A stretch of DNA of 64,000 bases from NCBI RefSeq assembly GCF_037126465.1, contig NC_088209.1, forward strand, positions 10,362,052-10,426,051, read 5' to 3'. The stretch is from Ornithodoros turicata. Its lineage: Eukaryota > Arthropoda > Arachnida > Ixodida > Argasidae. Both the position numbers and the translations under genes were made by a program. Below the pieces are notes generated by a model. The model was not told the origin of the DNA and made no database searches. It worked only from the letters and a program-made list of their open reading frames with translations. Each line of letters begins with the position of its first letter. Position 1 is the stretch's first letter. Positions 5,880-61,070 of this stretch are shown one piece after another.

Positions 5880-7091
5880 CAACCCAAATGGAGGCGTGCT
5901 GTGGTGGTGTCTCTCTTGAAGCCTGGCAAATCCGCGCATGCTCTGGACGCCTTTCGCCCAGTCGCTCTTGCCAGTTGTGTCGGGAAGGTTACAAAGCGCA
6001 TGGTGTACGCCCGGCTGAACTGGTACTTCGAAACCACGCAATTCTACCCCGAGGTAATGGCCGGGTTCCGCCAAGGGTGATCAGCTATCGATAATGTGAT
6101 AGCCCTCGTCTCCTCTGTGCAACAAGCGAAGTCGGAGGGGCCTCTCAGTGCTGCCCTCTTTCTTCACGTCGCAAAAGCCTTCGACGGTGTTCTTCAGAGC
6201 GTCGTAGTAACATCGCTTCAGGAAGTCGAACTGAGTGGCTGCACGCTCTCATGGCTACGCGATTTTCTTTGGGACAGATCCTTATTTGTGCGTACGCGAG
6301 AGAGTGATTGCGACACGTTCCCTATGCATCGCGGCGTTCCACAGGGCAGTGTTCTAAGTCCCCCTTTTTTCAATGTCATCTTGGCGCACTTGCCGCTTGA
6401 ACTGCCTAACCATACCCACATCACCATATATGCGCGGATGATATTTGCATATAGACTTCTGCTGTGCGGCGGGATACCATACAACGCCGCCTACAATCTG
6501 CTCTAGACGCTACTGTGTCATATCTCGCTGATCGAGGACTATCGGTATCGCCAACCAAAACCGTGGCTATGGCATTCACGCGGCGCTCATTCTGCAGCTA
6601 TCCCCTCTTCTTGACAGGATCAAGACTGCCGTTTGTTGGCTTCATCATTAATCGGGGTCTAACATGGTCTCGACAGATTACTGCCCTCTGTGCCACCACA
6701 GGCTCTTACTTTCACGTGCTGCGCCGCTCTCTGTGGGCCCTCTTGGACTACTTCCTGCACCGACCTCCTCCAAGTACACATCTCTCTCATTATTTGCACT
6801 TTACGCTACTGCTTGCCTGTGTTGCACGGTATTTCCCCCTTCAAGGAACGGCAACTGCTTAATCTTCAAGCTCGTCGCCTGTGCACTTGCTTGGGAGTCC
6901 CAAAGGCCACGGAAACTTTATTTGCTATCGCCGAAGCGCGAGTTCCTTCCGTACTTATCATCCGGGACACGGCAACCCTCCAAACATACACACACTGTCT
7001 TGCACGGCACTCATGTCACCACCTTCGTGATATTACGCAGCATTGCCCTGCTTCTGCGTACGGCCTAGCTATTCTGCGCCAACAAGGGTAA
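5880..7091 (+). pseudogene. LINE reverse transcriptase, frameshifted
   Basis: This would copy the element RNA into DNA at a nicked target. The frame opens within the fingers region (LLKPGK, then DAFRPVALASCVGK and YPEVMAGFRQG), is stopped just after that motif near 6080, and resumes at 6096 with the palm. HRGVPQGSVLSP is visible at about 6328-6365. The catalytic YADD box at about 6427-6445 is split: one frame reads YARM while the +1 frame reads ADDIC followed by a stop. The thumb then continues in another frame (RRLQSALDATVSYLADRGLS, from 6484). With at least three lesions it cannot be active. Family assignment rests on motif order. Confidence 0.8.
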
Positions 7092-7109
7092 ATCCCACCA
7101 TCGCATACC

Positions 7110-7883
7110 TTGGTCTCCTATACGAAGCCGCTGTGGACGTTAAGTCTGCCCCCCGTGCACACATCCGTTCCTGGTCTTCTGAAGAAGAGTTATGTCCCAG
7201 CTGTTGTGGCATGCGAACTAACGCTGCAACATCTCCACTCCGTGCACTCAAACCGAATGGGGATTTTCACTGACGGCTCGGTGGCGTCCGATGGATCATC
7301 ATCTGCATTTTACGTTCTGGAGGACGCATACCAGCGCGGTTTCAAGCTGCTGCTGGCGCTGTCATCAACCGAAGCAGAAGCCTTTGCTATCTTATCTGCT
7401 ATGCGGTACATCTCTTCGATGACACCAAGAGCATGTACTATACTTTCGGATAATAAGTCAGCTTTGGAGGCCCTGGCGTCGTATTCGTCCAAAGTTATCC
7501 ACGACATCTACACGGAGATCCTTTTCCTGCACGCCACACTTTCGTCTCTAGGTCACAGTGCGTGGTTCCAGTGGATTCCGGGCCACGTTGGTATCTCGGG
7601 GAATGCCCTTGCCGATTGTGCGGCCAGGGCTGCTCGTGCAACTGGGTCTGTGACTTCTGTCCTGCCTACGCAGTCTGCCTGCCGGCTAGCCATTCACCGC
7701 TACTGCAGAAATAGCTCTCAGACCTTTTTCCAAGACGCACTGTCATGTCAAAGGACACATCCCGCACTTGCTGCTCCACTGCGCCCGTTACCGCCAACAT
7801 CGTCTTATCCTATACGGTCGCGCATCGCTCGTCTGAGGATTCCGGACTTTTCCCTAGCTACGCTGCTACGCCCCACACAATAG
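7110..7883 (+). pseudogene. LINE RNase H domain
   Basis: RNase H domain of the retrotransposon, which would degrade RNA in RNA-DNA hybrids during insertion. Acidic residues appear in the expected order: Asp in IFTDGSVASDG (about 7262-7295), Glu in STEAEAFAI (about 7366), Asp in ILSDNKSAL (about 7440), and Asp in GNALADCAA (about 7603) after the WIPGHVGISGN motif. The domain is open over its whole length, better preserved than the upstream RT, but it is separated from the RT by frame changes and so would not be made as part of a polyprotein. After the domain the frame runs through arginine/proline-rich sequence to its stop. Confidence 0.8.
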
Positions 7884-22185: not shown

Positions 22186-22655
22186 GATGTAATGGAAGAC
22201 GTAGGAAGCATCCAAAATTTAAAGATTTATTACTAGCTTTGAGGCAGAGACTGCCCTTCTTCAGGTACATTGCGCACATGTTACAAAACAATATATAGCA
22301 CCAACATGGGTGAGCCCAGAAAGGAAGAGGGTGAGGGAGTGCTTGGCACATTTGATGGCACAAAAATATTCAAAAAGAGAAATAAAGTAAGAACCTGGGA
22401 AGAAGACAAAATTCGCGTGACATTGAGACCCGTATTTTGTCTTCTTCCCCGGTTGCTACTTTCTTTCTCTTTTTGAATATCTTAGTGCCATCAAATGTGT
22501 CAATCACTCCCTCACCCTCTTCCTTTCTGCCCTCACCCATGTTGGTGCTATATATTGTTTTGTAACATGTGCCCAATGTACCTGAAGAAGGGCAGTCTCT
22601 GCTTGAAAACTAGTAATAAATCTCTAAATTTTGGATGCTTCCTACGTCCTCCATT
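22186..22655. mobile_element. long foldback with hammerhead-like segments
   Basis: Two arms of about 210 bases mirror each other: GGAAGCATCCAAAATTTAAA on the left and its near-inverse TAAATTTTGGATGCTTCC on the right. In both arms, read toward the outside, CTGAAGA is followed by a GGGCAG-TCT-CTGC stem and then GAAAA or CAAAG. That resembles the catalytic side of a hammerhead as found in Penelope-like element ends. The core is imperfect, so activity is not suggested. Coding frames in the arms are reflections of each other, not genes. Confidence 0.65.
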
Positions 22656-30399: not shown

Positions 30400-30756
30400 C
30401 ACTCTGAGAAAAAAAAGGTAGAATTTCAAACCCAAGGTGGTAGAACGACAGTATTTCTACCATTTCGGACCAATCCACGCGCGCCTTCTGCTCCGCGGGC
30501 ATAAGCGGCGGCGTCCCTTTCCCCTTGCTCCTCTCTCTCACGTTTGCTCAGAGAGAAAAGGGTAGAATTTCCTAGAGTCACTAAATAAGCTCCGTATAAA
30601 TAAGCGTAGCTTATTTAGTGACTCTAGAATTTCCTACCCAAGTTTGCTTCTACTCTGCAGTTATACCCAAAACGTTAAATTGGTTTAAGTAGAAATGTGG
30701 TTGCAATACAGCTCTACCGAGACGGGTAGAACATTCTACCTGTTCTTCTTAGAGTG
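30400..30756. mobile_element. MITE inserted in the M13 gene
   Basis: Ends CACTCTGAG and AGAGTG with CA on both outer sides (30398-30399, 30757-30758). The inner GGTAGAATTTC/GAAATTCTACC-type motifs match the copy at 27166-27512. It separates the M13 conserved tail (30242-30399) from the rest of the catalytic domain. It was itself later hit by a smaller element at 30573-30626. Confidence 0.85.
30573..30626. mobile_element. 54-bp micro-MITE with 8-bp TSD
   Basis: Palindromic ends TAGAGTCACTAAATAAGC and GCTTATTTAGTGACTCTA around a short centre, flanked by perfect GAATTTCC duplications (30565-30572, 30627-30634). A 48-bp relative with its own perfect duplication is at 60483-60530. The 8-bp duplication suggests mobilisation by a hAT transposase. 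Confidence 0.9.
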
Positions 30757-32705: not shown

Positions 32706-34084
32706 CTGAAAAGTACGAAATACTCCTGTTACATGTCGCCTCTTTCATTTGAGGGAGAGGTATTATGTTCCTAGAACCAGTAACTGGGGTTTTCGATGTC
32801 CTCACTGAACAGGCCAGAGGCACTTTTACGCATGTCCTCTTGGTTAGAGTGCGTCTGTGCAGAGACGGCAGCTGTTTTAAAGACTGGACAGCGGGCCATT
32901 ACTTTGAACGCTCCCACTCACAGCAAAGTCAACTGCTGACGAACTAACGTGTACCAGGAGGGTAGTGTTACAGCGGAGAAAGCTTTCTTTCTCTGCCGTT
33001 CTGCTGATTTCCAGATTATTCTCAAAGCAAAAGAGAGTCGTTACTTGCGTAGTACACCAGGGTACATAAACCTACACGGCAAATGGGAGGACGGAAGGCG
33101 ATCACGACTAGGCGCTGGACAACCGATTTCAGAAAGCCGTTTTCCATGCAATTTCCTAAGTATACGGGGTGGTGGTGGGAATGGAGTCTGTAGAGTTCAT
33201 AAAAGAGGAGCAGCTCCATAAGCAGGAAAAAGACAATTGAGGGCAGACGATCATAGCTCGCTCGTGTAACCTTCTACAGACCGACTCGGAATACACGGCT
33301 CGAGTTGACATCCTGCAACCTCTCAACAGCCAACTCTCGGCAGTCGCCACCAGCGCTGTGCCGTCACAGATTGCGCCAACATCCAATTGTGATGAGCCAG
33401 GTCGTCTGCGCACAGATTTAGCAATTTTTTGCAATAGATCAAAGTGTGTGGCCATTATTTACTGGTGTTGGCATCGTTACTCCCATAAACCGCCCCAAAG
33501 GTACACCTAGCTCTTGTGCTACCGTTCCTAGCAGAGCAGTTGTCACAGAGGAAACTGAACCTGAAGCATCTCCCGCTAAGAAAGAAAAGTTATGCCGTCG
33601 TTATTTATCATTAATGTACAGAGTTATAGCTTAGAAGAATGAATATTTCACTGTTACTCTTTCGGAAAACACGGATGCGGGCCATATTGTACCTACATTC
33701 TACCATTCTTCCAAGCTGTTCTTTTTTTCCACTGCAGGCGCTGTTAGTCTCATCAGGAGGATGGAACCGATACAGTGATGCTCACAATCTCTTCACTGTC
33801 AACACTGCCTGCAGCTGACACTATATATGGTGACGTAAATTAGATACATGAATGGAAGCGCAGGCGACAGCCTCCGATGTCCTCTGCTTCAGAAAGTCGT
33901 CGGTGAACCCGCCAACATGAGAGGGTAAGTAATGGCGTGCCTCTGTTGTGTGAAACATGGTGTTAAGCATGATTCACACTGTTGCCTTTACCGCTGCGCT
34001 CGCGTATCACGTCCACTGACAGCGAATCATGGCAAAGGAACAATCTTCTGGATGGAACGAAGGTACACGTAAGATGCCGTTCGT
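32706..34084. other. flank of the M13 pseudogene; no gene recognised
   Basis: This should hold the intron upstream of the M13 exon, but I could not identify the exon for the cytoplasmic tail. On the plus strand, a TATATA motif (about 33822) lies about 95 bases before ATGAGAGG (33917-33924), which runs straight into a consensus donor GTAAGT (33925-33930). This could be a minimal first coding exon, but without a partner exon it remains weak. Confidence 0.3.
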
Positions 34085-34289
34085 AGCCGTAAGTGCTGCA
34101 ATGTGAGTCCCTTTTGTTTCGGCCTTCTTTTGCCTCTTCAGTAGCGTGCAGGCAAGAAACGTTTCAGCGGATGTAATAGGGAAAGAAAACGAATCAAAGC
34201 TCTGTGGCTGCAAGTTGAGCATATGTTTATAATCTGATCGCTCAGCCGAGGACACCTCTTTCGATCTAGTTGGTGCCCTTCCGCCCGGC
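34085..34289 (-). repeat. inverted, diverged ribozyme-repeat unit
   Basis: Read on the minus strand, this resembles the 233-bp units that follow: CATATGCTCAACTTGCAGCC then GAGCTTTG, CGTTTTCTTTCCC, GAAACGTTTCTTGCCTGC, CTACTGAAGA and GGCCGAAAC. The hammerhead core elements CTGAAGA (34141-34135) and GAAAC (34120-34116) are retained, but helix III and the cleavage site are not recognisable. Confidence 0.6.
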
Positions 34290-34293
34290 GCAG

Positions 34294-34349
34294 GGCAACG
34301 TTTGAGTGGATGGCGTCAGCGTTCTGACGCCATCCACTCAAACGTTGCC
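34294..34349. repeat. perfect 26-bp inverted repeat at array start
   Basis: Left arm 34294-34319 and right arm 34324-34349 (beginning CTGACGCCATCCACTCAAAC) are exact inverses separated by 4 bases. The right arm is the start of the first ribozyme unit, so the array begins with a head-to-head junction of two units. Confidence 0.9.
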
Positions 34350-34416
34350 TGCCTGCGTACTGCTGATGAGGCCCAACAAGGCCGAAACAGCTGTCCAGTA
34401 CTGGCATGGCGACGTT
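34341..34416 (+). ncRNA. type I hammerhead ribozyme, canonical unit
   Basis: A self-cleaving RNA. Core CTGATGA (34363-34369); helix II GGCC-CAACAA-GGCC (34370-34383); core GAAA (34384-34387); helix III CAG/CTG (34388-34393), a palindrome with no loop; then T-C with predicted cleavage after C34395. Helix I pairs GTACTG (34357-34362) with CAGTAC (34396-34401). It continues past an internal loop as TGCC/GGCA and AACGTTGCC/GGCGACGTT (one G-U pair). All core positions agree with the consensus. The loopless helix III is typical of hammerheads of retrozymes and Penelope-like elements, which work best as dimers, as a tandem transcript would provide. Confidence 0.9.
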
Positions 34417-34573
34417 TGAGTTACATACATATGCTATACGTGCAGCCAAAGAGCTCGGGCTATTTTTTTCCTTTTATACTTCACTGGCTTTGCACTGGGC
34501 TTTCAGTGAGTGAGTTATCTCACCCTGACGGGAGGAATCACGTGTTACGTGACCTTCTGACGCTATCCACGCA

Positions 34574-35348
34574 AACGTTGCCTGCCTGCGTACTGTTGAT
34601 GAGGCCCAACAAGGCCGGAACAGCTGTCCAGTACTGGCATGGCGACGTTTGAGATACAAACATATGCTATACGTGCAGCCAAAGAGCTCTGGCTATTTTT
34701 TTCCTTTTATACCTCACTGGCTTTGCACTGGGCTTTCGGTGAGTGAGTTATCTCACCCTGACGGGAGGAATCACATGTTACGTGACCTTCTGACGCCATC
34801 CACTGAAACGTTGCCTGCCTGCGTACTCTTGATGAGGCCCAACAAGGCCGAAACAGCTGTCCAGTACTGGCATGGCGACGTTTGAGTTACAAACATATGC
34901 TATACGTGCAGCCAAAGAGCTCTGGCTATTTTTTTCCTTTTATACTTCACTGGCTTTGCACTGTGCTTTCAGTGAGTGAGTTATCTCACCCTGACGGGAG
35001 GAATCACGTGTTACGTGACCTTCTGACGCCATCCACTCAAACGTTGCCTGCCTGCGTACTGTTGATGTGGCCCAACAAGGCCGAAACAGCTGTCCAGTAC
35101 TGGCATGGCGACGTTTGAGTTACAAACATATGCTATACGTGCAGCCAAAGAGCTGTGGCTATTTTTTTTCTTTTATACTTCACTGGCTTTGCACTGTGCT
35201 TTCAGTGAGTGAGTTATCTCACCCTGACGGGAGGAATCACGTGTTACGTGACCTTCTGACGCCATCCACTCAAACGTTGCCTGCCTGCGTACTGTTGATG
35301 AAGCCCAACAAGGCCGAAACAGCTGTCCAGTACTGGCATGGCGACGTT
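34574..35348 (+). ncRNA. four hammerhead copies with altered cores
   Basis: Copies at 34574-34649, 34807-34882, 35040-35115 and 35273-35348 keep helix I, helix III and the GTC site almost unchanged, but all have T in place of core C3 (TTGATGA). Copy 2 also has GGAA for GAAA. Copy 3 has GTACTC, weakening helix I. Copy 4 has TTGATGT, losing core A9. Copy 5 has A for the first base of helix II. C3 pairs with G8 in the active fold, so C3 to U is expected to lower activity strongly. Confidence 0.85.
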
Positions 35349-35507
35349 TGAGTTACAAACATATATACATACATAGGTTAAAGAGGTTAATATATCAGAC
35401 GGCTGCGAAGTTGAATAAAAGTAGAATAATAAGACGTGTACGACAGATTGCAGGAAAGTTAACAAAAACTAATTTATTTCATGGGTAATTTAACACATAG
35501 ATTATAA

Positions 35508-36006
35508 TAGAGATGGGACGAATCCGAAATTTTTCGAATCCGAATCCAAGGAAGGTTCTGCGAACCACGAATCTTACGAATCTCGAATCTTTCGAATCCT
35601 TTCTCTAAAAAGAGTTTTAAAAGCCGGGAAAAAAATACTTCTAGCGAAAAATGTTTTGAAGCAGAATATGATACATTTGTTTACTGAAAAACACGCGTAC
35701 TACAAGAAATACGTAAATGCTTGACTCCGAATTCTTTCATAAAACTAAGTCACTATCAAAATCTAGTTTTTAACTTGTAATGTAACGGTTCCTGCCTGAA
35801 CTCTCTCAGTCCAGAGTAATGTAAACAAACAAAACAAGAAGACACCTGTCGGCCAATAGGGCTTTCGGCGGACTCCGAAGGAGCCTATTTTAAAAAAAGA
35901 AACAAACAAACGTGGTTGGTGGATTCGAAAGATTCGATTCGCCGTTTTGGGCACTGGGATTCGGATTCACGAACCTCGATTCGTGGATTCAGTTGGTACA
36001 TCCCTA
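35508..36006. mobile_element. hAT-like element with GATTCG repeats
   Basis: Starts TAGAGATGGGACGAATCC and ends ...TTGGTACATCCCTA. Flanked by GATTATAA (35500-35507) and GATTAAAA (36007-36014), an 8-bp duplication with one mismatch. Both ends are dense in CGAATC/GATTCG motifs. No transposase in the 499 bp. Confidence 0.75.
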
Positions 36007-36043
36007 GATTAAAATATTCTATGAAACGTTTAAAAGAGCGGTC

Positions 36044-36074
36044 GACGTTTCGACAGTAGCGCTGTCTTCCTCAG
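36044..36074 (-). ncRNA. hammerhead-like core, probably element-derived
   Basis: On the minus strand CTGAGGA (36074-36068), a GACAG/CTGTC stem with loop CGCTA (36066-36052), then GAAAC and GTCGACC follow in hammerhead order. Helix II and both core blocks fit the consensus, but I cannot find a convincing helix I, so this may be only an element-end hairpin. Similar CGACGTTTCG...CTTCCTCAG motifs are known near Penelope-like element ends. Confidence 0.45.
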
Positions 36075-36427
36075 GGCAAAAGAGATAAAAGGGTTGCACA
36101 TTGCTTAAATAGCTGCGGTAAATGATGCCCTCTACAAATCTCGAGCATTTCTTCACGCGAAGCTCCTGAGAACGCTATCCTCTCGATTACATAGTAACTT
36201 ATTGCAGTTCTGTTCCTACATTTGACCAATGACTGCACAAAAGAAGAATTAAAGAAAGAAATTCGCGAAATTCAAAATGGCCTCCAAATTTTCTCAGACG
36301 TTCGGCGGTTGCTCTTGCATTTACTTTACATTGAATCAGCAGGGAGCCTGCTAGTTTTCTGCTGAAACCTTTCCAACGTACACCATGTTGATAACAAAAT
36401 ACACGGAGGGAATTGCAGAACAACTTA

Positions 36428-36683
36428 CTTCTTTGTGGTAGTCTTCAATCAGGGTAACTCCTGTACCGTGCACGGCAAAGTACCCGTCGTACGCCATAAT
36501 GGTCTGAGGTTCCTTTTTTTTCTGCTTCTTCCTCAAAACAGTGGCGCGTAACCCCGATTTCTTCATCATCTTCTGCATCAGACGGTGGCCGTTATCCACC
36601 AAGGGAGATTGCTCAGAACTGGGATATTTATTTCTAGCTATGATTGATGGGCATGGGGACGTCGTTTTCAAAAATAATATCAT
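36428..36683 (-). CDS. possible exon, family unknown
   Basis: A minus-strand open frame reads ...LVDNGHRLMQKMMKKSG..., a lysine-rich stretch (LRKKQKKKEP), then TIMAYDGYFAVHGTGVTLIE and DYHKE. It stops exactly at GAA/GTAAGT, a perfect splice donor (exon end about 36428). The start is unclear. It lies on the same strand as the possible peptidase exons at 38.4-39.1 kb, but its position after them does not suit a domain of that protein. No family recognised. Confidence 0.35.
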
Positions 36684-39069: not shown

Positions 39070-39167
39070 CAGAACTAGACGTTCTTATGGAAGCGTAGCT
39101 TAGCATGGAAACTTCCAGTAGGTCAATGAAAAAATGGCTAGGAAGCAAGCGAGCTGGTGAAGATGAT

Positions 39168-39256
39168 GCATAATGTAAAAACCCCGAGACTAGGGAACAC
39201 GAAGTGTCTGTGTCTGTCCCTTCGTGTTCCCTAGTCTCGGGGTTTTTACATTATGC
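39168..39256. repeat. perfect 37-bp inverted repeat hairpin
   Basis: Arms 39168-39204 and 39220-39256 are exact inverses; the right arm begins CTTCGTGTTCCCTAGTCTCG. The 15-base loop is TGTCTGTGTCTGTCC. There is no target duplication immediately outside. It is either a foldback MITE or the internal end of a larger element. Confidence 0.95.
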
Positions 39257-39595
39257 TTCCAGTAGGTGTTTCAACCCTGCCCAGTATACCAAAGCGCTAC
39301 CGCACAAGGCGCTCGCAAAGCGTCTCTTAAATACACTTATTATCCATGCAAGAAAGCTAGTGAGTGTATCTGAGTCAACATGGACCATGCCACTTATGTA
39401 GGAGGTAATTTATGACCAATAAAGCTGTGAAGTCGTATGTTTTACGAACCTGCAGCTGTCGGAAAACTTCTATTGAGTGTAGCATACGCCTAGCGCGCTT
39501 ACAACAAGCATACGCGTTACAAATAGTTTGCCGTTGGTGTCTCTGGTTAAAACCGTGAGTAGATATCTCCCTTCGTACTGTGTTATTGTGTAGTT

Positions 39596-45735: not shown

Positions 45736-45937
45736 CACTCCTATTTTTTACACCCTTTAGGGTGTATTAAGGGTGTAATTCAAAAGTGCGTTAACTCACT
45801 CCCTTTCGGGTGTAATATAACACCTTTTTCCACAGGCTACACCCTCCAAAACAAAAAGGGTGCACCATTTTTGGAGGGCGTAGCCTGTGCAAAAAGGTGT
45901 TATATTACACCCTAAAGGGTGTAAAAAATTAAGAGTG
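45736..45937. mobile_element. CACTC-family foldback MITE
   Basis: Starts CACTCCTATTTTTTACACCC and ends GGGTGTAAAAAATTAAGAGTG (in parts: GGGTGTAAAAAAT, TAAGAGTG). Arms carry GGTGTAATATAACACC and CCACAGGCTACACCCTCC, nearly perfect. CA occurs on both outer sides (45734-45735, 45938-45939), as for the MITE in the M13 gene. Confidence 0.8.
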
Positions 45938-53062: not shown

Positions 53063-53640
53063 CTGCTTCTACTGATGCGCCTCAGACTGGGGACTTTGCA
53101 CCGAGATCGTGCCTGGCGGTTTTTCATATCTCCATCGTCTGTTCGCAAGATATTCAACAACGTCCCGAAATCGCTGAATTAAATTACGAAATACTTCGTG
53201 GTTGGGCTACCGGAGTCAACGATACAAAGCAGCGTGCCACATTCATTCACTCAGAGCGGTTACGAGAACGCCAGGTGTATTCTGGACTGCACAGAAGTTT
53301 TCCTCCATAGGCCAAGGAAACAAATGTCCAGGGCACAAACGTACAGTTCCTATAAGGCACATGACACACTTAAGATTTGGACTGTTATTGCGCCAAACGG
53401 CTTTATAATGTATGTGTCCAAAGCATACGGGGGTCAGGCCTGTGATAAGTTGATTGTGAAGGATTGTGGAATTCTAGAGTACTTCGCACGAAATGATGAA
53501 ATCATGGCTGACAGCGGCTTTACCGCTGGACCCTTACCTGGCAGCCCAAGGGGTGAAGCTAAACGGCCAAGCACACGGGGTGTGGGTGGACGCTCGTAAT
53601 ATTGCTGCTAATTCACGGAACATCATTGCTTATCTCAAAT
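53063..53640 (+). pseudogene. PIF/Harbinger-type (DDE_Tnp_4) transposase
   Basis: Cuts and pastes the element's DNA. The N-terminal part reads LLLMRLRLGTLHRDRAWRFF, ISPSSVRKIFNNVPKSLN and then a stop (about 53178). The catalytic part follows in the same frame: GLPESTIQSSVPHSFTQ, CILDCTEVFLHRP (first Asp), RAQTYSSYKAHDTLKIWTVI, APNGFIMYVSKAYGG, ACDKLIVKDCG (second Asp) and EIMADSGF (third Asp). A 1-base frame change then moves the continuation to LDPYLAAQGVKLN and VWVDARNIAANSRN. The domain order and motifs match nuclease HARBI1-like transposases. The internal stop and frameshift make it inactive as it stands. Confidence 0.8.
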
Positions 53641-56860: not shown

Positions 56861-57420
56861 CCTGCCCCCCACTCCTTCCCCGCTGTCCTCTCTCCATCTA
56901 TCCGCATCTGCACGCCGCTCACAGCCACAGCTGCTTCGCGGCGGTAACACGGAATTAAAAAAGTGTGCTTGTACATATGAAAGCGGAGGCATTCCAGGTC
57001 TATTTTTGCTTGCATGAGACTGTTCCCAAATGCATAAAAAATGTAGGGGATTAAACAAATTTTTTAAACAATAAAAAAAAATGAAGATGTAGACACCAGA
57101 AGGAAAAGTGAGAAGCGCCAGCCAGCGCCAGGCGAGAGAGAAAGAGACTGTAACCGTATACTCAGAATCCAAAGGGTATTCTCAAGTGTATTGAGACGAA
57201 AGGGTGCGTCAGTTCATCGGTGTGACCGGCGTTGTTCGGAATCATTCCTTTGTGTACCAAAAATGTATTGTGTATTGATGTGTAACACCGTTGGGAAGAA
57301 ATAAACTACAGGATTACCCAACATTAATCAGAAGTGGGATTGTGAACACACCATCGGACGAAGACAACAAGCGAAAGTCAAGTAAGCAGACTCCTCGTTG
57401 GAATTTAGGCCTAGCTAACA

Positions 57421-58650
57421 ATGAAGAAGAAGCGTCCGCAGTCGGGAGCTCAGCCGCAGGCAGCAGAAGATACATCTGCTTCGAACACTCAAATTTCACC
57501 TGCGGGAGATGGCACAACACCAACTGCCGATACAATTGGTCAGTCTGTGCAAGACCCCGCTGACGATGGTGAACATGAGAGCCGTGAGGCGATCATAGAT
57601 TCTTCTATCACCTGCGAAGAAGGCTCCACCGCACCGAATGTGACTTCGACCACCGAGGGCACACAGCAACTCGACTTCCAGGCAATTCTTCAAACCGCGG
57701 TTGAGACAGCGGTCAGAGAAGCAAGTGCTGGCATATCACCAGCTCTGCAGCAAAACGCAGCACGTCCTCCTCACCACCGTGTCAACTACATGAACGATCT
57801 CGTTCCCGAGTTTCATCCGGATCAGGACAAGGTGATGACAGCAGAAAGGTGGACGAAACGTATTGACGAACTTGCAGAAACATTTGGCTGGTCAGATCTG
57901 GACACAGTTGTGGTGGCTCTTCCGAAACTCAGAGGAACGGCACGAACGTGGTATGAGGGTGTGTCCGTAGGCCGTCGAACTTGGGAGGAATGGAAAGAGC
58001 TGTTGCACGAGTCATTTCGTTCCACATCAGGCCTTCAGTCGCTCTACAGAGAAATGGTCGCCCGAAGGAAACGTCCAGGGGAGACATCAGAAGAATACTT
58101 TTACGACAAGGAGACGAAGGCAAGACAGTACAACCTCTCCGAGCCAGACGTTATCGAACACATCATCACAGGGCTCACCGACATGAAGCTCGTTCAAGCT
58201 TTGAGTGTGAGAGACTACCAGAACACCAAGGAACTGTTACGACACATCAAGAAGATAGAGGAAAGAGTCCAACTCGCCACAGAAAGGCACCAGAAAGGAA
58301 AACCACCTGAACAGTCGAAAGAAAACGCTTCAGAGAAATCGCAGGTCCAGGTGCCCAAGTCAGAGAATCAGAAGGGGCAGCCACTCTGCTTTAACTGTAA
58401 TAAAAGAGGGCATATAGCTCGTGACTGTCCAGAGCCGTCTCGACGACAACAATCACCAGCTGTTAAGGACACAAACTCCAATCGTCAAGCGCGCGATGCA
58501 AGTCGGGGATCATCGCAGTTTGTCGTGGCCGAGAACGTCAACCCCTGTGGACCCGACAAGTTTATCAAGGTTGCCAATATCAATGGTTCTCACGAGGTAC
58601 AGGCAATGCTGGATACAGGCAGCTTTAGTTGCATACTCCAAGCATCAGAT
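57421..58650 (+). CDS. LTR-retrotransposon gag with start of protease, truncated
   Basis: Gag packages element RNA into virus-like particles. ATG at 57421 is followed by a Gln/Ser/Thr-rich N-terminus (about 120 residues), then the retrotransposon gag core: FHPDQDKVMTAERWTKRIDE, LPKLRGTARTWYEGV, TWEEWKELLHESFRST. A zinc knuckle CFNCNKRGHIARDC lies at residues 323-336 and an aspartic-protease start, VQAMLDTGSFSC (Asp at residue 398). The frame then enters a poly-C run (about 58651) and unrelated sequence, so protease, reverse transcriptase and integrase are missing. Upstream (about 57180-57310) is A/T-rich sequence with AATAAAC and TTAATCAGAAGTGGGAT, possibly an LTR end and primer-binding region. 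Order gag, knuckle, protease fits the Ty3/gypsy type. The open, frame-intact gag suggests a fairly recent insertion. Confidence 0.85.
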
Positions 58651-61070
58651 CCCCCCCCCCCCCGGAACTTTCGCAGGGGGGCCAGGCCCCTCCGGGAAGT
58701 CTACGCAGCTGACACTCAATATGAATGTTTCGAGAGATTTCCTAAGAATCTTTCGCGTGTTGCACGCGAGTGAACATGAAAATCCTGAAAAAATTCGTCT
58801 CATAACGTCACAACACGGAAGCCTTGACACCATGTCCGACCTGTGTGTATGGGGAAGGGCGTTGTGCTCCGGCCCCCTCCGGCAGATTGCAAACTCTCCG
58901 CCTATGCACGAGACCAAAGCTAACCCAGGAAAGCACAGCTCACGTGCTATACGCAGCGCGTGCATCGTACCTCGAACGATTGTTAGTATTCCATGGACGG
59001 AGCAAACCCGTGTGACCCCGCCGGGAGCATGCACTCAGACCCCACGCAGCGCAGGGTCAAAATCTGCTCTCTTATGGAATACATCATAAATATAGAAGGG
59101 CAACAGGATAGGGAGGAATGCGACACCAGCCTCAGCCTCTAAGTAGATGTATAAAATGTGTAACCGCCACGATATTTCGAGATCTACGGCTGTCTCGAGA
59201 ATACACGTCGCTAAAGGTTACAATAAATGGTACTGAGTTAAGAGTGTGCACAGCAGCGGTGCTGAATTGCCTTTGTCTCAAAGCCACCGAGGAAGATGTG
59301 GTGAACAATCAAGAGAGTGTACACGATAAACAGTTTGGCAATAAAAGAGTATGCCCAGTAGACGTAATTCGACGTATTTATTGGTTTCTCTTTTCCTCTT
59401 CGCCTAGGAGCACTTGCAATAGTAGTCCCAAACACCGATACATCTTCCGGCAGAATAACCCCATGAAACGCAAACGACGTGGCAGGTTCGGTCTTCGGGA
59501 CACCTCAGCTTCTCCGGCATTTGAAGGGCTGAAAATGTCGCACTATGAAATTGTGCGCAACGTTATACTAACGAGTTTTTGTTCGTTGGATGAACTCTAG
59601 GAAAACAATACAGTAAACAACGTTATCAAAACCAAGCTTAGGAATGTGAGTTCATCCGTTTCAAAGAAACACGCTTTCGTGACCGTAATCAAATGTCCCA
59701 ACGTACGTGGCCACCGCCGTTTGCCCCCAAGACCGACGACTCCAGTGTCCGCTGCGAACGCTGTAAGGATACATAACTGATATCAATACTTTGATCAAGA
59801 GAACTTAATCACGCAAGGCGCTCAGTGTACAGCTCGAAGCAGAAGTTAGATGGAACGCATCTCCTACCTGCGGAGCGGGAAGAGAGGCACCCTAGCAGCG
59901 CCTCCGAGAAATAAAGGGAAAGAGTGTCTTGACTCTCCCATTTTTGCTGGGGGTGTCCGCCTAGCCATGAGTTGTTGACTCGGCATCGCGTTACCTTCAA
60001 CCGTTGTTATCATCGCGACGTTTCTTTGGTTGGCGGAGGTTGTGTAGAGGTGTATGTTAGTCGATATCTAGTAATGCAATGCTGAATCAACAGGTCATGG
60101 CATGACGGACACCCCCGCTACACAAGTGGGACAGCCGAAACACTCTTTCCCTTCATTTCGCCTAAGTGCCGCTAGGGTGGCTCTCTTCCAGCTCCACAGG
60201 TCGGAGACGCGTTCAAGTTAACTGAGCTCCGAGCTGTACCCTCCTCGGCGTGCTACACGCCTATCATTATTGCACTACTACGTTCCCTGTTGAATCTTTA
60301 AATGGCTATCGCATCCGGAAGGTTGTGTATGAGACCGACACGGTAATGCTGGACATGGCTTCACGGTCTATACTTGGCAAAGTTTATCTTCTGAAACCAG
60401 CTGACTTACTAAATACATGACCAGAATTTAGAGACACAGACTGCAAAGCTGGCTTCGCCGTAGACTTGAGTATCATGCAGTGTAGAGTCACTAAAGCTAC
60501 TAAATAAGCGTAGCTTATTTAGTGACTCTAATGCAGTGTAGCCAGCTTGACAGGCCGGCACGGGGACATGCCAGGGGCATTAAAAAGAAGCGAAGGGGTG
60601 TGGAGGGAGATAAGGAAGGGAACTTCTGCGTTACATAGTCACGAGCACCGGCCTTTATTAGGACGTTACGACAGCACAATGACCGGCCGAGGGCGGTAGC
60701 AATGTGGGGGGGGGGGGGGGAGGTAAACATTGCTTCCAGCGCCGTGTGTCGGAGAATTCCGGCGCACGTCAAAAGAACCCCAGGTGGTCCAAATTATCCG
60801 TAGTCCTGCCCTGCGGTACGTGCAACATATCGCCACACTGCGCAGACAAACCTTCCGTGTAACATCACAGTACGATTACCATTATTACGCGTGCCCGCGA
60901 GGTCTCGTACTTAGATCTAAAATGAAAGACGTAATACATAGCTCCAGCAGGCTTCTGCGACGGTTGAATATCGTGGAACAATGGACCATTTCCATGTACG
61001 CTTCGCTCCTTGCGGCGAAAGACGACATGATGAGAAGACGACGAAGCAACGATGAAAAGTTAACACGACG
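58651..61070. other. gag-truncation flank; no gene recognised
   Basis: From the poly-C run (58651-58664) onward, sequence unrelated to the retrotransposon follows. The plus frame to 59089 and that at 59118-59600 show no motifs. A G-run lies at 60706-60720. The micro-MITE at 60483-60530 is the only clear feature. Confidence 0.45.
60483..60530. mobile_element. 48-bp micro-MITE with 8-bp TSD
   Basis: Ends TAGAGTCACTAAA and TTTAGTGACTCTA, with perfect ATGCAGTG duplications outside (60475-60482, 60531-60538). Inner AAATAAGCGTAGCTTATTT matches the element at 30573-30626. Confidence 0.9.

Follow-up and report, generated by a model that had tools for sequence, protein, structure and literature searches.

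Metazoan retrozymes have been described as non-autonomous elements that carry type I hammerhead ribozymes in tandemly arranged units and give rise to RNAs of about 170-400 nt, both linear and circular (Cervera & de la Pena 2020, PMC7229834). That paper mentions target-site duplications with the words 'when present', and the question of how animal retrozymes move is left open. Among soft ticks, Argas monolakensis has a predicted, putative retrozyme RNA (Fig. 7c of Cervera et al. 2016, PMC4918200). The same source gives a paired fraction 'above 70%' for retrozyme RNA, as an observation and not as a criterion. Penelope-like elements are regarded by the retrozyme authors as a strong or likely mobilising candidate, though with no motif that would prove it. 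Two Penelope systems are of relevance. In the rotifer Adineta vaga, endonuclease-bearing Penelope elements such as Pen2a and Pen3a often have an inverted terminal repeat that faces the direct repeat head to head; an inverted 5' pLTR overlapping the direct one by 15 bp has been described, and 18-bp and near-perfect 38-bp palindromes are present at pLTR 5' ends, the junction palindromes being read by the authors as self-priming (PMC3846280). For the PAc element of Anolis, reverse transcription begins in an AC-rich stem loop and AT-rich DNA is favoured; in vitro insertion was independent of ribozyme cleavage, and the uncut RNA was taken as the main substrate (PMC11167929).

A tandem array of a 233-bp unit was found on the plus strand at 34322-35364 of the window (the whole stretch of 64,000 nucleotides of Ornithodoros turicata DNA that was analysed). 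Tandem Repeats Finder and a comparison of the units indicate 4.47 units, with five hammerhead domains and four linkers; the program gave a period of 233, 4.5 copies, 96% matches and 0% indels. The first-pass annotation had noted the 233-base periodicity at 34324-35355, and this was borne out, with the edges off by 2 and 9 bases. Pairs among the four full units differ at 5 to 11 per 233 bases; the fifth, partial unit has 2 to 5 differences from the other units over its first 108 bases. A variant at unit position 176 is common to units 3 and 4 and absent from units 1 and 2. Within the 64-kb window, the sole other copy of the unit found is a decayed one adjoining the array, and one exact piece of the unit gave no match in genome_contigs.

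The presence of the ribozyme in each unit was assessed with the Rfam model Hammerhead_1 (RF00163; gathering score 34 bits) in a search of 33800-35900. All five domains matched on the plus strand: unit 1 at 34357-34401 (44.8 bits, intact core, expected cleavage after C34395), unit 2 at 34590-34634 (36.1 bits, C3 to U and A13 to G), unit 3 at 34823-34867 (32.7 bits, C3 to U and the helix I closing pair broken by G2.1 to C), unit 4 at 35056-35100 (36.5 bits, C3 to U and A9 to U) and the partial unit 5 at 35289-35333 (36.2 bits, C3 to U and G10.1 to A). Significant matches to all five segments had been anticipated from the letters alone; the assignment to Hammerhead_1 held for all five, and four reached the cut-off, unit 3 falling under it. 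When the full window was searched at the gathering threshold, three of the five segments were listed, the best with an E-value of 3e-08. In a whole-window E-value run Hammerhead_1 was listed for four of them, and at the fifth place the row was Hammerhead_HH9 (28.9 bits against a cut-off of 52). Since the chance expectation of the best segment in 64 kb is 3e-08, the hammerhead motif is not a chance match. There was no minus-strand hammerhead row in the searches of 33800-35900 or of the whole window, and the miRNA and snoRNA rows near the array lay far under gathering (27.3 against 140, 19.6 against 92 and 16.8 against 75 bits).

The core of unit 1 reads CTGATGA, GAAA and GTC in that order. In helix II, GGCC pairs with GGCC around a CAACAA loop; helix I is GTACTG/CAGTAC, and helix III, as aligned to the Rfam model, consists of two base pairs with AGCU as the closing loop. 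Every one of the unit 1 features named in the first-pass annotation (CTGATGA, GGCC-CAACAA-GGCC, GAAA, CAGCTG, GTC with C34395, and GTACTG/CAGTAC) was thus found. Helix I belongs to a larger domain, which in unit 1 extends over 34337-34420 on the plus strand, where a 13-bp outer, a 4-bp middle and a 6-bp inner stem enclose the ribozyme. With the 4-bp and 13-bp stems possible beyond helix I, the ribozyme is tied into a long arm. The extended domain recurs in every unit, units 2 and 3 having one mismatch in the outer stem. This 13-bp extension of helix I, the core lesions of units 2-5, the inverted decayed copy and the palindrome at the left of the array are additions to what had been noted before. 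For the unit 1 domain the predicted fold of lowest energy (-44.7 kcal/mol) pairs GCUG with CAGC and does not form the active core, whose own fold reaches -38.7 kcal/mol. In each of the five units some other fold lies below the active one, the gap being 0.3 to 6 kcal/mol overall and 0.3 to 3.9 kcal/mol across units 2-5; as the folding program ignores tertiary contacts, this preference serves as a caution only.

The five ribozymes were compared at 14 core positions, whose list and numbering agree with the core consensus quoted in PMC7151607, the 10.1-11.1 pair being added to it. All 14 match the consensus in unit 1 only. Units 2, 3, 4 and 5 have U at C3, and each of these also has a private lesion. 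At most positions of the hammerhead core, mutations lead to a drastic loss of activity, tolerated exceptions being rare (PMC3088659), and C3G and G8C each abolished cleavage in a Penelope hammerhead (PMC11167929). A natural hammerhead variant with U at position 3 has been described, in which that base is preceded by two inserted bases (PMC7151607). By analogy with these cases, the change of C3 to U probably weakens or kills cleavage in the ribozymes of the array. Because only the core of unit 1 is intact and those of units 2-5 are damaged, the array copy should not efficiently release 233-nt RNAs, and inefficient processing is the most that would be expected. As unit 1 alone has a consensus core, a transcript of the array should be cut mainly once and not into monomers. 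The output implied earlier for this locus, self-cleaving circles, is weakened to that extent, the catalytic cores being damaged in four of the five units, and the array copy has probably outlived its activity. The differences from the array consensus were also counted: at the 14 conserved positions per unit they number 4 of 18 against 1.2 expected (binomial P 0.03), and at 16 positions, with the helix I closing pair added, 5 of 18 against 1.4 expected (P 0.01), in a test picked post hoc and with the position 176 variant counted twice in the 18 and the C3 difference once. The excess of changes at core positions is only a lead.

The array can most likely be assigned to the animal non-LTR retrozymes, as a genomic copy of one. 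This is supported by the five covariance-model matches, which are in register at a spacing of 233 nt and of which four are at or above the cut-off, and by a further copy of the unit beside the array, in a more advanced state of decay. The earlier description of the sequence as retrozyme-like is well supported, since it has a type I hammerhead, a short helix III and a tandem unit whose 233 bp fall within the roughly 170-400 nt published. Its likeness to the metazoan retrozymes (PMC7229834) extends to the type I hammerhead, to tandem units of that size, and to a short helix III with a tetraloop. The G+C content of the monomers, 48-50%, is at the edge of the 'below 50%' given in PMC7229834. The element would be small, non-coding and non-autonomous. 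A polymerase would transcribe it as a multimer, which the type I hammerhead would cut at each unit where it is intact; the unit-length RNAs would be closed into circles by a host ligase, and a borrowed non-LTR or Penelope reverse transcriptase would copy the circles into DNA at fresh sites. Cleavage, circles and reverse transcription are expected here by analogy with the published animal retrozymes. Circular RNAs of the four monomers are more stable than dinucleotide shuffles (z of -2.7, -1.9, -4.8 and -3.9), with 0, 6, 0 and 0 of 200 shuffles as stable as the respective monomer.

Several features count against this assignment, namely the core deviations in four of the five units, the paired fraction, the minimum folds other than the active one, and the absence of a target-site duplication. 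The paired bases amount to 57-64% in the monomers and to 60-62% in the shuffles, three of the four monomers being at or below their shuffles and the fourth at 64.4 against 60.8%; the monomers are thus below the 'above 70%' of PMC4918200. The array differs from the metazoan retrozymes in its damaged cores (four of five) and in the decayed head-to-head copy with a palindrome attached to it, and from those of them that have a target-site duplication in that one was not detected here. Plant LTR retrozymes (PMC4918200) are likewise non-autonomous, with hammerhead-cut, circularising transcripts; they differ in having type III hammerheads in LTRs, a PBS, a PPT and 4-bp duplications.

A putative retrozyme RNA from another soft tick was published in 2016 (PMC4918200), and on this assignment the unit is another representative of an already described kind of element. 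Both hosts, Argas monolakensis and Ornithodoros turicata, belong to the Argasidae; the two are likened by description and not by sequence identity. The present locus adds a soft-tick genomic copy to the earlier soft-tick report found, which is of one predicted RNA only. Literature searches, with most subscription journals outside their scope, returned nothing besides PMC4918200 for Argas monolakensis with hammerhead, nothing joining Ornithodoros turicata with ribozyme, and only African swine fever virus work for hammerhead with Ornithodoros. Within that literature, the Ornithodoros turicata unit may be undescribed so far.

On its left the array is joined to an inverted copy of the unit. This copy, at 34083-34319 on the minus strand, is decayed and holds parts of two successive units with deletions. 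It lies head to head with the array, the two meeting at an identical unit position, and both end in, or shortly past, a hammerhead domain. The junction is a perfect palindrome (34294-34349) at the 5' end of the array, with arms at 34294-34319 and 34324-34349 and a 4-nt spacer; this 26-4-26 structure joins the inverted copy to the array. Beyond it, 34293-34183 aligns to unit positions 29-150 with 80% identity, and 34174-34083 to unit positions 9-110 with 81%, both with deletions and both as fractions of aligned columns with gaps set aside. The two local alignments each score 53; for each arm, the highest score among 500 single-base shuffles was 26. In blastn, where gaps count, identity was 78% over 59 columns in one alignment and 72% over 135 in the other, which takes in the perfect stretch. 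Clear similarity of the inverted copy stops at 34115, and a weaker alignment continues to about 34083. A target-site duplication was not found around the array alone, around the array with the inverted copy, or around the inverted copy. The best exact match at the ends is an 8-mer that belongs to the unit, and the matches of 5-8 bases are unit motifs or, in one instance, a 5-base match that is too short. The window has three places with perfect inverted arms of at least 16 and a spacer of at most 20, namely the palindrome of the array, 39168-39256 with 37-nt arms and 30572-30627 with 20-nt arms; short hairpins per se are therefore not unique to the locus of the array.

A single event producing the array and the inverted copy from one template was considered, and its simplest form was rejected, because the inverted arm differs at about 20% of aligned columns and has large deletions, against 5-11 per 233 bases in the full units. 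It is more likely, judging from this divergence, that the inverted arm was an older copy beside which the array inserted, or that it came from a divergent second template. For the perfect palindrome beside sequence of about 80% identity, local self-priming or arm-to-arm conversion would each suffice as an explanation.

The head-to-head arrangement bears on the suggestion, made in the first-pass annotation, that the sequence might be the end of a Penelope-like element. The units would then be the pseudo-LTRs of an element that has lost its ORF, and the inverted copy would be a head-to-head pseudo-LTR. Inverted copies placed in this way and joined through a palindrome have been described for Penelope elements (PMC3846280), and the locus resembles the Adineta vaga elements in its tandem and head-to-head arrangement and in the palindrome at the inverted junction. 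With Anolis PAc (PMC11167929) it shares a hammerhead in the element and an AC-rich start beside AT-rich DNA: unit homology stops at 35364 in GTTACAAACATAT (3' junction, 35355-35400), and in the 36-base flank 35365-35400 AT makes up 72%. The transition from AC-rich to AT-rich sequence at the 3' end is weakly Penelope-like by this comparison. It is a weak point, because 5.5% of sampled 36-mers of the window are equally AT-rich, and the head-to-head palindrome is the stronger resemblance. However, Pfam scans covering 23 of the 76 listed ORFs, all of at least 110 residues and clear of the array, revealed neither a GIY-YIG domain nor a reverse transcriptase near the array. In these scans the only reverse transcriptase above the cut-off, together with a neighbouring RNase H, occupies 6081-7883, some 26-28 kb distant, and the contiguous units leave no space for a Penelope ORF. 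Penelope hammerheads are described as minimal and usually without helix III, whereas the ribozyme of the array has a helix III of 2 bp. The inverted arm of the array (72-81% identity, with deletions) is also far more decayed than the direct units, unlike in Penelope-like elements, and may be a separate older copy. A Penelope remnant is therefore very unlikely as the identity of the array and was rejected on the Pfam scans, with one distant reverse transcriptase and no GIY-YIG in the 23 of 76 ORFs; the suggestion is not supported as it was put, given the lack of GIY-YIG, the lack of a nearby reverse transcriptase, and the presence of the 2-bp helix III. As to Penelope elements in soft ticks, among the literature matches listed only a mite genome paper has the word.

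An ordinary satellite array, expanded by unequal crossing-over and carrying the hammerhead as a passenger that has no mobility at the RNA level, would easily account for the position 176 variant shared by units 3 and 4, and the small number of units and the lesions in the core would suit it as well. It is nonetheless unlikely, as the array is short within the window and lies inside a predicted intron, the older inverted copy alongside suggests insertion, and both copies begin at one unit position and end in or shortly past a hammerhead domain. For a viroid-like or delta-like infectious circular RNA captured as DNA, the unit length and the ribozyme are of a fitting kind, but the ribozyme is on one strand only and the decayed second genomic copy suits a retrozyme better. 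Two exact pieces of the unit (32 and 36 bases) and one degenerate core pattern had no match in viral_contigs, exact patterns reaching close relatives only, and two units had no match in phage records. With nothing in viral_contigs or phage records for the unit pieces, the core pattern or the two units, an infectious RNA was rejected, and such an origin is most improbable.

If the array is a retrozyme copy, the question of its movement may be related to the Penelope-like traits of the locus. It is a doubtful proposal that the locus records the movement of an animal retrozyme in which an enzyme of the Penelope type would have begun in the AC-rich sequence just 3' of the ribozyme, used AT-rich DNA and copied an uncut multimer with disabled ribozymes beside an older copy, self-priming leading to the palindromic head-to-head junction. 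Were this so, long arrays would come from cleavage-dead transcripts and not from laps round a circle, and an excess of core mutations would be expected in genomic arrays. If the palindrome and the surplus of ribozyme damage were to recur in other copies, they would provide sequence evidence on the mobilising enzyme and its template.

The array lies antisense within predicted intron 1 (32706-36428, minus strand) of the Ornithodoros turicata gene LOC135369293. The intron has a gtaagt donor and a ttttcag acceptor and follows from the protein prediction. A 360-residue stretch on the minus strand has 100% identity over its full length to an uncharacterised Ornithodoros turicata protein, and no other match had an E-value below 0.001. 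The full protein has 413 residues; exon 1 is 36497-36429, followed by gtaagt, and exon 2 starts from 32705, preceded by ttttcag. Given this orientation, the host pre-mRNA would carry the complement of the array, which has no hammerhead match. The protein matched the Pfam M13 peptidase N-terminal model under the cut-off (17.2 against 32 bits, E 0.0036). The neighbouring exon had no match among plasmids, and there were no tRNA genes in the window by ARAGORN with the bacterial code.

Other elements were seen in the window. The stretch 6081-7883 is a LINE-type fragment, with RVT_1 in the ORF 6081-6506 and RNase H in the ORF 7092-7883. A DDE_Tnp_4 domain (81.4 bits) at 53183-53599 is the remnant of a DNA transposon transposase, presumably of the Harbinger-like kind. 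The long ORF at 57415-58773 has a CCHC zinc knuckle and a sub-threshold match to retrotransposon gag (22.5 against 24.1 bits), and is probably the gag of an LTR element. The cysteine-rich stretch 45933-46415 matches gamma-thionin (18.5 bits, cut-off 25.1) and defensin models under threshold and is perhaps a defensin-like exon. Close to it, at 45798-45922, is a MITE-like inverted repeat with 54-nt arms that are 93% complementary, and an extra copy of one of its ends is present at 45750-45769. Further inverted repeats are located at 30560-30639 (35-nt arms, 86% complementary) and, near-perfect, at 39165-39259 (40-nt arms, 98% complementary, 15-nt spacer). A long hairpin at 22250-22596, with 169-nt arms that are 92% complementary and a 9-nt spacer, looks like a foldback MITE and gave plant miRNA rows in Rfam under the cut-off on both strands; it reaches the left end of the searched stretch and is possibly longer.
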